A stretch of 64,000 nucleotides of DNA from Candidatus Gastranaerophilales bacterium (GTDB lineage Bacteria > Cyanobacteriota > Vampirovibrionia > Gastranaerophilales > Gastranaerophilaceae). Position numbers and translations under genes: made by a program. The stretch is from positions 1 to 64,000 of the forward strand of contig CALVEC010000003.1 in the NCBI GenBank assembly GCA_944326475.1, read 5' to 3'. Position 1 is the stretch's first letter; each line of letters starts with the position of its first letter. The notes beneath the pieces are model-generated. The model saw only the letters and a program-made list of their open reading frames with translations, was not told where the DNA came from and made no database searches. Positions 52,844 to 62,794 of the stretch are shown in pieces.

Positions 52844-53356
52844 ATGAATAACAATCCTTACTTAAAACAATACAAACAAACCCAGGTTGAAACTGCACCG
52901 AGAGAGCAGATTTTGCTTATGCTTTACGATGGTGCCGTGAAATTTTTGCAAACCGCAAAGCAAGGATTTGCAGAAAAAAACATTGAAAAAATTCATAATA
53001 ATATTGTTAAAGCGCAGAATATTATTACTGAATTTCAGGCTACACTGGATATGGAAAACGGCGGAACTTTCGCTAAAAATTTGTTTTCGCTTTATGAATA
53101 TTTAAATCAAAAATTGATGGTTGCAAACATAAAAAAACGTGAAGACTGTCTTGACGAAGTAATAAGACACGTTACCGGACTCCGGGATACATGGCGGGAG
53201 GCAATTCAAAAATTCAAAGCCTCGGGCGGTGTCCTGGATGAATATACTGAAGATAAGTATACAAAAGGCAGTTCCGTTGATTACACTGACGATGATGACG
53301 ATGATGAAGACGATGATGAAGATGATGATGAAGATGATTCCGGAGATTACGCATGA
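52844..53356 (+). CDS. fliS: Flagellin export chaperone FliS with acidic tail
   Basis: 170 aa against about 125-135 for typical FliS. The N-terminal part matches FliS: N-P-Y-L-K-Q-Y-K-Q-T-Q-V-E-T-A-P-R-E-Q-I-L-L-M-L-Y-D-G-A. The helical bundle ends near residue 130. The remainder is a run of Asp and Glu with few other residues. FliS holds flagellin unfolded for export. Its stop overlaps the next gene by four bases. The tail is odd and could affect binding. Confidence 0.93.
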   Translation: MNNNPYLKQYKQTQVETAPREQILLMLYDGAVKFLQTAKQGFAEKNIEKIHNNIVKAQNIITEFQATLDMENGGTFAKNLFSLYEYLNQKLMVANIKKREDCLDEVIRHVTGLRDTWREAIQKFKASGGVLDEYTEDKYTKGSSVDYTDDDDDDEDDDEDDDEDDSGDYA

Positions 53357-57983: not shown

Positions 57984-58679
57984 ATGGCAGAAAATAAACT
58001 CCCATCAGGTGTAGGTAAAAAAATCGTTCAAGCTTTGAAGAAACAAGCTGAAATAGAAGTAAATTCTCTCCCGGAACCTCCAAAAAATGTTGTTTCGGAA
58101 CCCAAAGAACAGAATATTCAACAGGAATATTTCGATGAGGTTTCGCAAAATATTCCGGCGGATGCGAACTTCGATGATTTTGCTGTGCAGGATACGTTTT
58201 TTGAAGACACCGGAAATATTTTAAATGATTTTCCGACAACAGAAGGAAATTATGTTGATGCTGCAAGTTTTGAATTTCCTCGCCAGAAAAATGTTTCGCC
58301 GGTTTTTGAGAAGGAAGATATTTTTGCAAAACCAGGTGTAAAACCGATTAATCATCCGGCTCAGCATACCATGCCTTCAAATGTTGCAGTTCTTAAGAGA
58401 TTGATTATGCAGCTTCCGTCGGGTGTCACCAAACAGACCGGTGCACAAATTATAAGACAGACAATGGAAGCTCTCGGCATTTCTATGAACAGCGTGCTTA
58501 AAGAAGCCCAGCAGGTGCAAGACGGTTTGAATGACAGTGCAAGAGACTGCTTGTCCACAATCCAGCAGTATAAAGCAAACATTCAGGCGCTAGAAAAACA
58601 AGTTCAAGACTACAGAAAACAAGCACTTGCACTTAACGACCTAATCAGTTTGTTTATTCTCACAGATAAAAATAAATAA
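57984..58679 (+). CDS. Unknown protein with paired LPSGV motifs
   Basis: 231 aa, not recognised. The motif L-P-S-G-V occurs twice, near residue 6 and near 138, each followed by a helical stretch. In between lies a disordered acidic region with Pro, Asn and Phe. The C-terminal 80 residues form a coiled coil. It stands alone, with its own promoter and terminator, just upstream of the flagellar block. It could be a cytoplasmic scaffold, but no function can be assigned. Confidence 0.7.
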   Translation: MAENKLPSGVGKKIVQALKKQAEIEVNSLPEPPKNVVSEPKEQNIQQEYFDEVSQNIPADANFDDFAVQDTFFEDTGNILNDFPTTEGNYVDAASFEFPRQKNVSPVFEKEDIFAKPGVKPINHPAQHTMPSNVAVLKRLIMQLPSGVTKQTGAQIIRQTMEALGISMNSVLKEAQQVQDGLNDSARDCLSTIQQYKANIQALEKQVQDYRKQALALNDLISLFILTDKNK

Positions 58680-58851: not shown

Positions 58852-60030
58852 GTGGATTTGCAATTTGAACAACAGGAAAACAAAATAATATCTACATTCT
58901 CAAAACAGTTGAACAGAACATACGACTGGTTTGATGTGAATTTTACGGAAAACCTTGAAATAGCGTCTTCTGATTTTTGGAATACGGAAATTAGCGCAAA
59001 ACTTATGGGTGTTTGTGAAAATGTAAATCTTTTGTCCTCGCAGGATGAATATTTTGTTACAAAAATAAGACTTAACAAAGAGAGAGCTATATTTATCAGA
59101 TTGTCAAAACAAATAGTCAGAGAGCTTCTTGAGGATTCAATGGGACAAAGTCCGGTCAATAAACCTTTTGACCTGGAAAAAATAACAGAGCTAGAAGCAA
59201 AGATTTTGACAGGATTTAACAATTATCTTTATAAATTTTTTAGTGAACTTCTTGTGCCGCCAAATGAAATCCCTCAAAATACCGTGAACTACAACGAATG
59301 TATTCTTACATTTTTTGTAACAAACAAAAAACGCGGAATCGGAAAACTCATTGTGACAGTTCCTGTTATTGCCGTGAAGCCGGAAAAATTGAGAATACGC
59401 CACAGATTCAGTATTGATGATTTTAAAACTTGTCCTGCAAGATTTAACATAAGCGTAGGTAAAACCAAAATTAAACTTAATGATATAAAGCAGCTCGAGC
59501 CGGGTGATATTGTTGTGCTTGAAGACAGCAATATCAAAAGAATGACTTTGATATATGAAAACAAAACGCTAAAGTTCAAAGTTGTTCCCAATCCGGCGCT
59601 TATAAAAGATTTTGATTATGATGGAGGCAGACATATGGATGAAAATTCCGAAACTAATTTTAATATGTGGGATACGATTCAGGTTGACATGGGCGCTGAA
59701 TTTGAAAAAGTAAAAATCTCACTCGGCGAGCTAAAACAGATGTCCGAGGGGCTTGTGGTAGACATAGGTTCTGTTTATGAAAATAAAATAGATCTTAAAG
59801 TGGAAAACAAAATTATTGCCTCCGGCGAATTGGTCATTATAAATGATAGATACGGGGTCAGAATTGATGAAATATACACGGATGATAAAGATGAAGATGC
59901 CCCGCAGCAGATTGATAATCCCGAAAGTGCCGCTGAAATCAATAATTCTCCGGAAAATGCGGTTGAAGCACCTCAGGGTGAAGAAGATTTTGATTACAGC
60001 GATTTTGATATAGAAGAAGAAGATATATAG
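58852..60030 (+). CDS. FliM/FliN-like C-ring protein with two SPOA domains
   Basis: 392 aa. Residues about 1-185 are an unfamiliar N-terminal region. Two SPOA domains follow: about 193-248 (K-I-K-L-N-D-I-K-Q-L-E-P-G-D-I-V-V-L) and about 273-343 (V-K-I-S-L-G-E-L-K-Q-M-S-E-G-L-V-V-D-I). Then comes an acidic tail to 392. SPOA domains build the cytoplasmic C-ring of flagella and the SctQ ring of type III secretion; two in one chain is the SctQ/YscQ pattern. The start may be GTG 58852 or TTG 58858, the latter better spaced from AGGGG. It leads fliO-P-Q-R. Confidence 0.78.
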   Translation: MDLQFEQQENKIISTFSKQLNRTYDWFDVNFTENLEIASSDFWNTEISAKLMGVCENVNLLSSQDEYFVTKIRLNKERAIFIRLSKQIVRELLEDSMGQSPVNKPFDLEKITELEAKILTGFNNYLYKFFSELLVPPNEIPQNTVNYNECILTFFVTNKKRGIGKLIVTVPVIAVKPEKLRIRHRFSIDDFKTCPARFNISVGKTKIKLNDIKQLEPGDIVVLEDSNIKRMTLIYENKTLKFKVVPNPALIKDFDYDGGRHMDENSETNFNMWDTIQVDMGAEFEKVKISLGELKQMSEGLVVDIGSVYENKIDLKVENKIIASGELVIINDRYGVRIDEIYTDDKDEDAPQQIDNPESAAEINNSPENAVEAPQGEEDFDYSDFDIEEEDI

Positions 60031-60044
60031 ACAGGATAGGAAAT

Positions 60045-60491
60045 ATGACAGGTTATTTAATAAATTTTGCGGTTTATACAATGGCAATGGTTGGTGCATT
60101 GCTGCTTTGTTTTGTTGTTTACAAAAAAACGGTTATGGGGACTAAATATTCAAAAAATCCGCAAGACAATCTTGAAATAGAAAATTCTTTGAGCATTTCT
60201 CCTAAAAAAACGCTGTATGTCGTTAAAGCGGGTGACGAAAAATTTTTGATTGCGTCAGATCCCGAGTGTACAACGTTTCTTGCTAAATTAAATACAAATT
60301 GTGAACAAACAGCACCCCAAACGTATCAGGAACCGCTGAACTGCACAATAGATGTGGAGCCTGTGAATATTGCAAAACCCAGAGAAGCAAAAAAATATGC
60401 CATTGATTATAACGAAATTCTCAATAACGGCACAAATAAAAAACAGCCAATGATGAGAGGCATTATAAAAAAGCTTAACATTCCTGAATAA
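60045..60491 (+). CDS. fliO: FliO-like flagellar export assembly protein
   Basis: 148 aa. One N-terminal membrane helix (about 5-26), then a beta-rich cytoplasmic part with S-I-S-P-K-K-T-L-Y-V-V-K-A-G-D-E-K-F-L-I-A-S-D, the FliO signature. FliO helps FliP form its ring. It lies 14 bases after the C-ring gene and 20 bases before fliP. The C-terminal 60 residues are low complexity. Confidence 0.8.
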   Translation: MTGYLINFAVYTMAMVGALLLCFVVYKKTVMGTKYSKNPQDNLEIENSLSISPKKTLYVVKAGDEKFLIASDPECTTFLAKLNTNCEQTAPQTYQEPLNCTIDVEPVNIAKPREAKKYAIDYNEILNNGTNKKQPMMRGIIKKLNIPE

Positions 60492-60511: not shown

Positions 60512-61153
60512 ATGGATAGTATTTTAAAAGACTTAAACCCTGTTATACAAATGCTGATAGTGATGACGGCATTTTCTTTGCTGCCGTTAGTTTTTACTTG
60601 TATGACGAGTTTTTTAAGATATACAATAGTTTTTTCACTGCTAAAACAAGCTCTTGGAACCCAGCAGGTTCCGCCGGGTATTGTACTTGTCGGATTGTCA
60701 ATGATATTAACAATGTATACAATGAGTCCGGTTTTTCAAAAAATGTGGGAAATGGGTGAACCGTATTACACAAAAAACGGAGATATGGTTATGGCAATTG
60801 CCGAAGGCTCAAAACCCCTGAAAGAATTTATGATGAAGCAGACAAGACAGGAAGATATGACGTTTTTTATTGAACTTTCAGGAAACGGCAAGCCGAAAAC
60901 GCCGGATGACATTACTATATGGCAGGTAGCGCCGGCATATATCATCAGTGAACTAAAAACGGCATTCGAGATAGGTTTTGTTATATTTGTACCGTTTATT
61001 GTTCTCGATTTGATTGTTGCAAACGTGCTGCTGGCTTTAGGTATGTTTATGTTGTCTCCGACTATTATATCTCTGCCGTTTAAATTGCTGATATTTATTG
61101 CCGTTGACGGCTGGAGTATGATTGTCCACGGACTTGTAACGAGCTTTAATTAA
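60512..61153 (+). CDS. fliP: Flagellar export gate protein FliP
   Basis: 213 aa. Family core: F-T-C-M-T-S-F-L-R-Y-T-I-V-F-S-L-L-K-Q-A-L-G-T-Q-Q-V-P-P-G and L-G-M-F-M-L-S-P-T-I-I-S-L-P-F-K-L. It is shorter than E. coli FliP (245 aa) because it lacks a cleaved signal peptide. With FliQ and FliR it makes the membrane export gate. Confidence 0.95.
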   Translation: MDSILKDLNPVIQMLIVMTAFSLLPLVFTCMTSFLRYTIVFSLLKQALGTQQVPPGIVLVGLSMILTMYTMSPVFQKMWEMGEPYYTKNGDMVMAIAEGSKPLKEFMMKQTRQEDMTFFIELSGNGKPKTPDDITIWQVAPAYIISELKTAFEIGFVIFVPFIVLDLIVANVLLALGMFMLSPTIISLPFKLLIFIAVDGWSMIVHGLVTSFN

Positions 61154-61164
61154 GGAATAAAATT

Positions 61165-61653
61165 ATGGAAATACTACTTGAATATATGGGTAAAGGTCTT
61201 CTTACAATGCTTATGATATCAATGCCTTGTGTATTGACAGCAGCGTTTGTCGGGCTTATTGTTGGTATTTTGCAGGCTGTTACGCAGGTTCAGGAACAAA
61301 CAATTGCTGCTGCGCCTAAAATTCTTGCTGTGTTCCTTGTGTTAATGATTCTTGGTGTGGGGTACATAAAACTTTTGACGAATCTGCTGCAGGAAGGATT
61401 TGCTCTTGCCTTCAATCAAATTCCTTCAAGCGACAGTTATGTTCTTCCCTCTAATTATCATCGTTATACAGTTCCGTTTGCTGAAGAAATGAAGGAAAGC
61501 AGATTCCAGAAGCAGGAAATCGGGGATATTATGCGAAACCCCGGAAAAATTCCGTTCATTGATAACAATGAAAAAATCAAATATCATCCCTCGGACAGAA
61601 TGCCAAATCCAAGTCCTAATTTTATAGAACGTAAAAGAATAATGGAAAGATAA
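61165..61653 (+). CDS. fliQ: Flagellar export protein FliQ with C-terminal extension
   Basis: 162 aa against about 89 for typical FliQ. Residues 1-85 are a normal FliQ with two membrane helices (G-L-I-V-G-I-L-Q-A-V-T-Q-V-Q-E-Q-T). Residues about 86-162 are an extra hydrophilic tail with Pro, Arg, Asn and Met and no membrane helix. The tail ends I-E-R-K-R-I-M-E-R. It is in frame, with no sign of a fusion partner that I recognise. Confidence 0.92.
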   Translation: MEILLEYMGKGLLTMLMISMPCVLTAAFVGLIVGILQAVTQVQEQTIAAAPKILAVFLVLMILGVGYIKLLTNLLQEGFALAFNQIPSSDSYVLPSNYHRYTVPFAEEMKESRFQKQEIGDIMRNPGKIPFIDNNEKIKYHPSDRMPNPSPNFIERKRIMER

Positions 61654-61660
61654 TATATAA

Positions 61661-62002
61661 ATGAAAAAGTTTCTAGCAGCAACTATGTTATTGACAGTTC
61701 TATCAGTGCAGCAGGTGTTTTGTGCAAATGTAAAAGAAACAATCATTCTGCAGCCGACAGATACGGCGCTTTTGTTTTTTGACGAGAGACCGACAAATAT
61801 GTCTGTTTCAAATCCTGAAGTGATAAACGCAAAAACTATTTCTAATATATTTGCTGATGATTCAAAAGTTACAATAAACGCGACTGACCTTGGTACAAGC
61901 AGTCTTGTAATAGAAACAAAAAGTAAAAAGTATATTTACGTTGTAAAAGTACAAAAAGATGCACCGAAAGACAAATCAATGATTTTAGATACGCCTGATT
62001 AG
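61661..62002 (+). CDS. Small secreted protein with pilus-secretin N-domain fold
   Basis: 113 aa. A signal peptide (residues 1-21, ending V-F-C-A) is followed by a domain resembling the N-terminal region of CpaC/RcpA-type secretins (PF13629): S-N-P-E-V-I-N-A...I-N-A-T-D-L-G-T-S-S-L-V-I-E-T. It would be a free periplasmic N-domain without the secretin pore. It lies between fliQ and fliR with gaps of eight and nine bases, a place where no such gene is normally found. Its role is unknown; it may link the export gate to the peptidoglycan or outer membrane. Confidence 0.75.
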   Translation: MKKFLAATMLLTVLSVQQVFCANVKETIILQPTDTALLFFDERPTNMSVSNPEVINAKTISNIFADDSKVTINATDLGTSSLVIETKSKKYIYVVKVQKDAPKDKSMILDTPD

Positions 62003-62011
62003 AGAATCGCA

Positions 62012-62794
62012 ATGCTTGATACAATAATAAATACATTTCCTAAATATTTTCCTGAGTTTAACAACGCGCTTGGCGTTGGCATCTTTATTTTTGCAAGAAT
62101 TTTAGGTTTTATGAGATTTGCTCCGGTTCTAAACAGAAAAGAAATCATAGGTATGGTTAAATTGTCTTTTGCTTTAATTTTGACCATAATTCTGTCGCTC
62201 ATAATAAAACCTACAGTCGTTCCAACCGGCTCCTCTCTGATACTGGGTCTTATTTTAAACTTTGTAGGCGGTGCTATTTTAGGTTTTATTGCCCAGTGTA
62301 TAACATCAGCTATCGCCGCAGCCGGAGATATGATTAATATGCAGATGGGATTGTCTTCCGCAACGGTATTAGATCCGACGACATCGTCTCAGACTTCTAT
62401 CATGGGGAATATGTTTTCTATTTTTGCTTTGATAATTTTTTTGCATATAGGCGGTATGTACTGGCTTATTGCTGCACTTTTGAGAACATTTGAGATTTTT
62501 CCTGTATATGCAACCGCTATTCCTCTCGAGCAGCTTGTGAATATGGAATATTTGATAAAACTGACTGCTAATGTTTTGTTTGTCGGACTTCAAATAGCAT
62601 CGCCTGTTTTACTGGCAACTCTCGGGCAGGATTTGATTCTCGGGATTATTTCAAAAACTGCTCCGCAAGTAAACGTATTTCAACTGAGCTTTCTGTTTAA
62701 GCCTGTTTTGGGGGCTGCTATTCTTGTGTGGATAATGCCTATTATTTTCAATGTAATATCTGATTACTTTTTGTCATTTGCAAAAATATTTTAA
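62012..62794 (+). CDS. fliR: Flagellar export gate protein FliR
   Basis: 260 aa with about six membrane helices. Family motifs: F-I-F-A-R-I-L-G-F-M-R-F-A-P-V near the start and Q-M-G-L-S-S-A-T-V-L-D-P in the middle. It completes the gate with FliP and FliQ. It ends one base from the oppositely oriented NuoN-like gene, with no terminator between. Confidence 0.94.
   Translation: MLDTIINTFPKYFPEFNNALGVGIFIFARILGFMRFAPVLNRKEIIGMVKLSFALILTIILSLIIKPTVVPTGSSLILGLILNFVGGAILGFIAQCITSAIAAAGDMINMQMGLSSATVLDPTTSSQTSIMGNMFSIFALIIFLHIGGMYWLIAALLRTFEIFPVYATAIPLEQLVNMEYLIKLTANVLFVGLQIASPVLLATLGQDLILGIISKTAPQVNVFQLSFLFKPVLGAAILVWIMPIIFNVISDYFLSFAKIF

Follow-up and report, generated by a model that had tools for sequence, protein, structure and literature searches.

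The window analysed here, a 64,000-nucleotide stretch from the genome of a member of the Gastranaerophilales, carries a series of flagellar-type export gate genes on its plus strand, with an additional gene between fliQ and fliR. Gastranaerophilales are non-photosynthetic cyanobacteria of animal and human guts. In the window, fliP (60512-61153; PF00813, 2e-69) is followed by fliQ (61165-61653; 162 aa; PF01313, 2e-19), the additional gene (61661-62002) and fliR (62012-62794; PF01311, 1e-51). The additional gene, hereafter the insert, starts with ATG, ends with TAG and encodes a 113-aa exported protein, which was characterized through the ORF listing, PF13629, a family HMM, hhalign, AlphaFold, Foldseek and dN/dS. 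It is separated from fliQ by 7 nt (61654-61660) and from fliR by 9 nt (62003-62011), and all four genes lie on the plus strand in a geometry of co-transcription. An earlier note on this DNA had placed an export-signal protein of 113 aa between fliQ and fliR, eight bases after the former and nine before the latter; the ORF coordinates agree with the protein and the downstream gap, but not with the upstream one. The export signal was called by a hydrophobicity heuristic.

Upstream of fliP on the same strand, fliO (60045-60491; PF04347, 5.4e-8) scored 36.3 against 55.25 with TIGR03500, and a gene at 58852-60030 encodes a 392-aa protein with two SpoA domains (two PF01052 stretches), as in a FliM/FliN- or SctQ-like cytoplasmic ring. 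The SpoA protein scored 52.7 against 100.8 with the SctQ model and is co-conserved with the system B loci described below. Its neighbour (57984-58679, plus strand) encodes a 231-aa protein that matched no Pfam family above cut-off but has phmmer homologues at 3e-34 to 3e-42, and that adjoins the SpoA gene in the window and the FliE/FliF-B locus in three relatives (G009, G010 and G016). From these positions, this protein is likely an unrecognised component or substrate of system B.

Two flagellar-type systems in one genome

The window's genome (G000) encodes two FliR, two FlhB, two FliF and two full-length FlhA proteins, together with a third FlhA match. One set, system A, has the canonical order fliP-fliQ-fliR-flhB(-flhA) without the insert and adjoins flagellin or flgC in relatives. 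The window fliR belongs to the other set, system B, and is a paralogue of the system A FliR gene on contig C33. A simple flagellar context for the window fliPQR was ruled out by this second, canonical FliR, and the tacit claim of the earlier note that these genes are the flagellar set of the cell failed on the presence of a separate canonical fliP-fliQ-fliR-flhB. Moreover, a profile search of 109 genomes never placed the insert next to system A genes.

System B has a second locus containing fliE, fliF, a FliG-like gene, fliH, flhA and fliI, which in the window's genome lies on contig C20 (L135); in relatives, flgB, flgC, two flgG-like genes and a gene for an SLT transglycosylase are also found in it. 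FliJ, FliK and a hook-like FlgE/F/G-like protein of about 278 aa are encoded near FlhB-B or FliI. The FliG-like protein (L135:15078-16058) is conserved (1e-49 to 1e-125) and gave only weak matches to MgtE_N and FliG_M. The FliG_C motor domain was not found in this protein, which suggests a non-rotating machine.

When compared with the flagellar NCBIfam equivalogs, FlhA (699.7 against a cut-off of 772.1), FliR (151.5 against 168.6), FliF (115.4 against 129.75) and FliQ (60.8 against 88.9) of system B all failed, and FliP was the only system B protein above its cut-off (TIGR01103, 226.7 against 217.45). The system A FliR and FlhA (contig C9) pass the flagellar cut-offs. The injectisome equivalogs were not reached either, with scores of 600.7 against 692.25 for SctV, 115.5 against 163.05 for SctT and 202 against 208.6 for SctR, and with FliQ also below the SctS cut-off; FliP-B passes one broad EscR/YscR subfamily model (225.7 against 179). 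By these model scores, system B is closer to the flagellar than to the injectisome models and, except for FliP, lies below both sets of equivalog cut-offs. In a FlhA tree, the system B sequences of several orders formed one clade, with the E. coli branch lying between it and system A, and a class-level sequence provisionally labelled B (G100) stayed outside this clade.

Flagellin was found in 59 of the 109 genomes and FliR in 104, which leaves about 45 genomes with system B but without flagellin. The P-ring gene flgI was found in 56 genomes, always as a single copy, and in none of the flagellin-less genomes listed; flagellin-less genomes mostly encode 1-3 PF06429 rod-type proteins versus 6-9 in most flagellated ones. 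In a wider phylum sample, every same-family genome but one contained a FliR-B match. The window's genome itself has unusually many flagellins: the flagellin N-terminal domain was matched 23 times in it, in some cases within ORFs of 600-1167 aa. The window encodes at 52844-53356 a FliS-like flagellin chaperone with a long Asp/Glu-rich C-terminal tail, the G001 counterpart of which matches E. coli FliS at 6e-14.

Taken as a gene set, system B resembles the flagellar type III export apparatus in having gate genes, FliO, FliH/I, FliE, rod proteins and FliK. Unlike the flagellum, it lacks flagellin in the 45 or so genomes mentioned above, has no P-ring of its own and showed no FliG_C domain. Unlike those of the injectisome, its gate proteins fall below the Sct equivalog cut-offs. 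The one secretin of the window's genome is of the PilQ/GspD type and encoded away from the system. The filament-less basal bodies of Buchnera, a proposed exporter, likewise combine a basal body and an export gate without filament (PMC8109811, PMC3459982); there, however, it is the flagellar locus itself that is reduced, whereas system B is deeply paralogous to a flagellar set that the genome encodes separately.

Earlier studies have read these genes as flagellar. Di Rienzi et al. (2013; PMC3787301) reported 13 flagellar genes common to Melainabacteria genomes, with two flhA listed, and interpreted MEL.A1, which lacks the filament, the cap and the L/P rings, as a case of reduction. In the same study, fliP, fliQ and fliR of ACD20 are numbered 0006, 0007 and 0009 on a single scaffold, so that a gene already stood between fliQ and fliR, uncommented in the part of that study dealing with these numbers. 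Soo et al. (2014; PMC4040986) and Utami et al. (2018; PMC5877343) described the genes as partial flagella gene sets, and our literature search found no paper distinguishing two flagellar-type systems here. Such partial gene sets and ongoing reduction (PMC3787301, PMC4040986) would agree with system B being a decaying flagellar remnant, of the kind termed incomplete flagella, in which the insert is incidental. We regard this as highly improbable, since the gate genes are intact and under strong purifying selection (dN/dS 0-0.1 in the pairs tested), and the same gene set recurs across several orders, tracks organism phylogeny and coexists with the flagellar set.

Domain and fold of the insert

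The insert is composed of a hydrophobic N-terminal signal and a single predicted beta-sandwich (about residues 22-100) resembling the N-terminal domains of CpaC and VirB9. Its C-terminus reads LDTPD, for which the family version is (I/L)DxPP, a type of motif present in 41 of the 45 family members. Against PF13629 (T2SS-T3SS_pil_N), the insert scored 23.8 bits (gathering threshold 23.0; E 3.7e-5), which is marginal on its own and is the only Pfam match to this family in the window's genome; 15 of the 45 homologues match PF13629 with E values no higher than 0.1. When 109 whole genomes were searched with a profile of these 45 members, strong matches came from the fliQ-fliR junction only. The next tier of matches (E 1e-7 to 1e-3) was made up largely of secretin ORFs matched in their N-terminal regions, among them CpaC-type ORFs of 429-515 aa. 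Alignment of the insert family with 19 secretin N-domains of relatives by hhalign yielded a probability of 96.1% (E 2.8e-9, 67 columns), as compared with at most 1.33% for 30 column shuffles and 0.15% for a reversed alignment.

By profile, the insert is the same domain as that at the N-terminus of CpaC/RcpA-type (Tad) secretins; it likewise has an export signal, and the two have in common a VGKSQLIKFDEPV-like core, in which FDE occupies the same position. Unlike these secretins, it stands alone as 113 aa in a flagellar-type gate operon, and a Pfam search found no match to the secretin barrel (PF00263) in it.

A second likeness is to the N-terminal domain of VirB9/TrbG/CagX in the outer-membrane core complexes of T4SSs (PF03524), which 11 of the 45 family members match with a best E of 9.4e-8; the best homologue tested reached 32.5 bits against a cut-off of 34.2, and the window protein had no match. 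Direct sequence kinship to TrwF/VirB9 was rejected, and as single-sequence hhalign gave only 1.3%, the CagX matches of some members are kept as a lead only. Sequence searches of the PDB with the insert returned nothing significant. The AlphaFold2 model, built on an alignment of two sequences rather than a deep one, has a mean pLDDT of 77, a core at residues 21-100 with blocks of 73-96, and seven strands. Foldseek matched this model in the PDB to S-layer Ig domains (E 7.7e-5) and to the VirB9 N-terminal domain of the R388 core complex (TrwF; 7o3t_B; E 3.0e-4, rmsd 2.3, TM 0.53-0.54), a likeness shared by generic Ig domains. Unlike VirB9/TrbG/CagX, the insert lacks the VirB9 C-terminal domain and has no T4SS genes adjoining it. 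Based on the profile matches, AlphaFold2 and Foldseek, the insert is predicted to be a beta-sandwich standing by itself, of a type that secretins and T4SS core complexes use in their periplasmic parts. The resemblance to CpaC-type secretin N-domains put forward in the earlier note is upheld by the PF13629 score above cut-off, the family profile search and the hhalign result.

The same note had proposed a link to a pilus-type secretin. Indeed, the homology of the insert to the CpaC N-domain, the CpaC-type secretins of some relatives and the precedent of a T3SS that lacks a secretin and operates together with a Tad pilus (PMC12075869) would suit an insert that links the export gate to a Tad/CpaC secretin, like the Kil/needleless T3SS* pair of Myxococcus. 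However, the secretin search found no CpaC-type secretin in the window's genome, where the sole secretin is a PilQ/GspD-type protein that has its own STN and Secretin_N domains and adjoins T2SSE/T2SSF, and the insert occurs without the need of a CpaC secretin; such a link thus appears quite unlikely. The lack of a CpaC-type secretin also ruled out that the insert had split off from, and still partners, a Tad secretin encoded here. The secretin-less 'Myxo' non-flagellar T3SS and the needleless T3SS* of Myxococcus resemble system B in having no secretin of their own, in retaining FliO and in coexisting with other appendage systems (PMC3459982, PMC12075869, PMC12248157), but system B has, besides the insert, rod and hook-like proteins of the flagellar type as well as FliK.

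Distribution of the insert among relatives

System B fliR loci were collected from about 100 genomes, and 95 fliQ-fliR junctions were resolved. At 49 of these junctions lies an ORF on the same strand whose product has 112-234 aa and a hydrophobic N-terminus, and 45 of the 49 ORFs fall in a single HMM family (E<1e-17), which was built without the divergent junction ORFs of G029, G061, G062 and G086. Two more copies lie upstream of fliR-B on short contigs (G007 and G053). Altogether, the insert is present in 47 of 84 Gastranaerophilales genomes, which confirms the conservation beside fliQ and fliR that the earlier note had called for, while divergent ORFs occupy the junction in 4 and none is found in 33, all of which still possess system B. 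The junction survey did not find the insert in other orders having system B; as most assemblies are drafts, its absence is weak evidence in one genome and better across many. This pattern marks the insert as accessory rather than essential. Parsimony on the FliP+FliR tree required 13 changes, and a scan of genome contigs returned a single close homologue. The insert is under purifying selection yet evolves fast, with pairwise dN/dS of 0.12-0.29 versus 0-0.10 for fliP, fliQ and fliR. These values, together with the same-junction homologues with a hydrophobic N-terminus in 47 of 84 genomes, argue that it is not a chance ORF.

The signal-peptide ORFs outside the main family in G061, G029, G062 and G086 (L057:10311-10691, L174, L183 and L206) may, by their sequence, be a divergent version or a replacement of the insert. 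The junction ORFs of G014 (L162), G087 (L207) and G096 are unrelated to the family, and G018 (L165) and G076 (L196) have a fliQ-fliR gap of 105-202 nt without an ORF; the junctions of G014, G087, G018 and G076 are possibly decayed inserts.

The insert occurs in 36 of 46 flagellin-positive but only 11 of 34 flagellin-negative genomes, a comparison confounded by shared ancestry. This enrichment would be expected if the insert served the true flagellum, for example as a P-ring helper, and shared only its gene position with the system B operon. That reading is very unlikely, as the insert is never beside system A genes and is retained by those 11 flagellin-negative genomes, whereas FlgI was found only in flagellin-positive ones. 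A role shared between system B and the true flagellum is possible, given that the insert is commoner in flagellin-positive genomes.

A proposed role for the insert in system B

We give about even chances to our best explanation, in which the insert acts in the periplasm as an accessory part of a second export machine, one of flagellar type that forms no filament and is separate from the flagellum of the same cell. That the insert belongs to system B is well supported; the ring or bushing role we infer from the missing P-ring and from the rings formed by related domains. The insert would be exported by Sec and then multimerise, by analogy with such domains in CpaC and VirB9 complexes, and the multimer would surround the distal rod or the hook-like shaft of system B, where it would in part serve as the envelope bushing that the missing P-ring, or a secretin, would otherwise provide. 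The (I/L)DxPP tail would hold it in place, and instead of a filament the machine would export hook-like or other proteins of its own. A periplasmic addition to the export machine, as the earlier note had envisaged, is still the best reading.

The main rival to a ring is a periplasmic assembly factor or chaperone of the gate, FliO-like and perhaps touching the FliQ tail, that is no part of the finished machine. The tight co-transcription geometry of fliQ, insert and fliR, the single small domain and the accessory distribution would all fit such a helper. On the other hand, FliO is already encoded, and the domains of CpaC-N and VirB9 are ring parts, not chaperones. Moreover, a tail alignment showed no difference in the conservation of the C-terminal tail of FliQ-B (about 75 aa; IGDIMRNPGKIPFID...) between genomes that carry the insert and genomes that lack it, so that the tail is not its dedicated partner, and a docking site for the insert there was unsupported. 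An assembly helper therefore seems rather unlikely.

More broadly, and tentatively, the ring reading could extend to system B as a whole: a dedicated, non-motile protein-delivery machine of the class Vampirovibrionia, neither flagellum nor injectisome but of a third kind, may have derived from a P-ring-less hook-basal body, to which Gastranaerophilales added a periplasmic ring of its own from a stand-alone CpaC/VirB9-type domain. Injectisomes arose by secretin capture, that is, by the addition of an envelope ring, and system B would then be an independent case; capture of a CpaC/VirB9-like domain by a flagellar-type gate would exemplify anew the step from flagella to secretion systems. Gastranaerophilales probably run an export machine whose genes had earlier been written off as remains of a flagellum and which is kept even after the loss of flagella. 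Papers so far have counted system B genes as complete or decaying flagella. Should system B be an exporter in its own right, what has been said about motility and the loss of flagella in this class would have to be revised, and gut commensals would offer a conserved candidate secretion machine open to testing.

The flhB-B gene of the window's genome (contig C4) adjoins a FliA-like sigma factor gene (Sigma70 region 4), an arrangement seen in all four FlhB-B loci examined (L233:7879-9650, L234, L235 and L236). Judged from this gene order, dedicated regulation of system B by the FliA-like sigma factor is possible.
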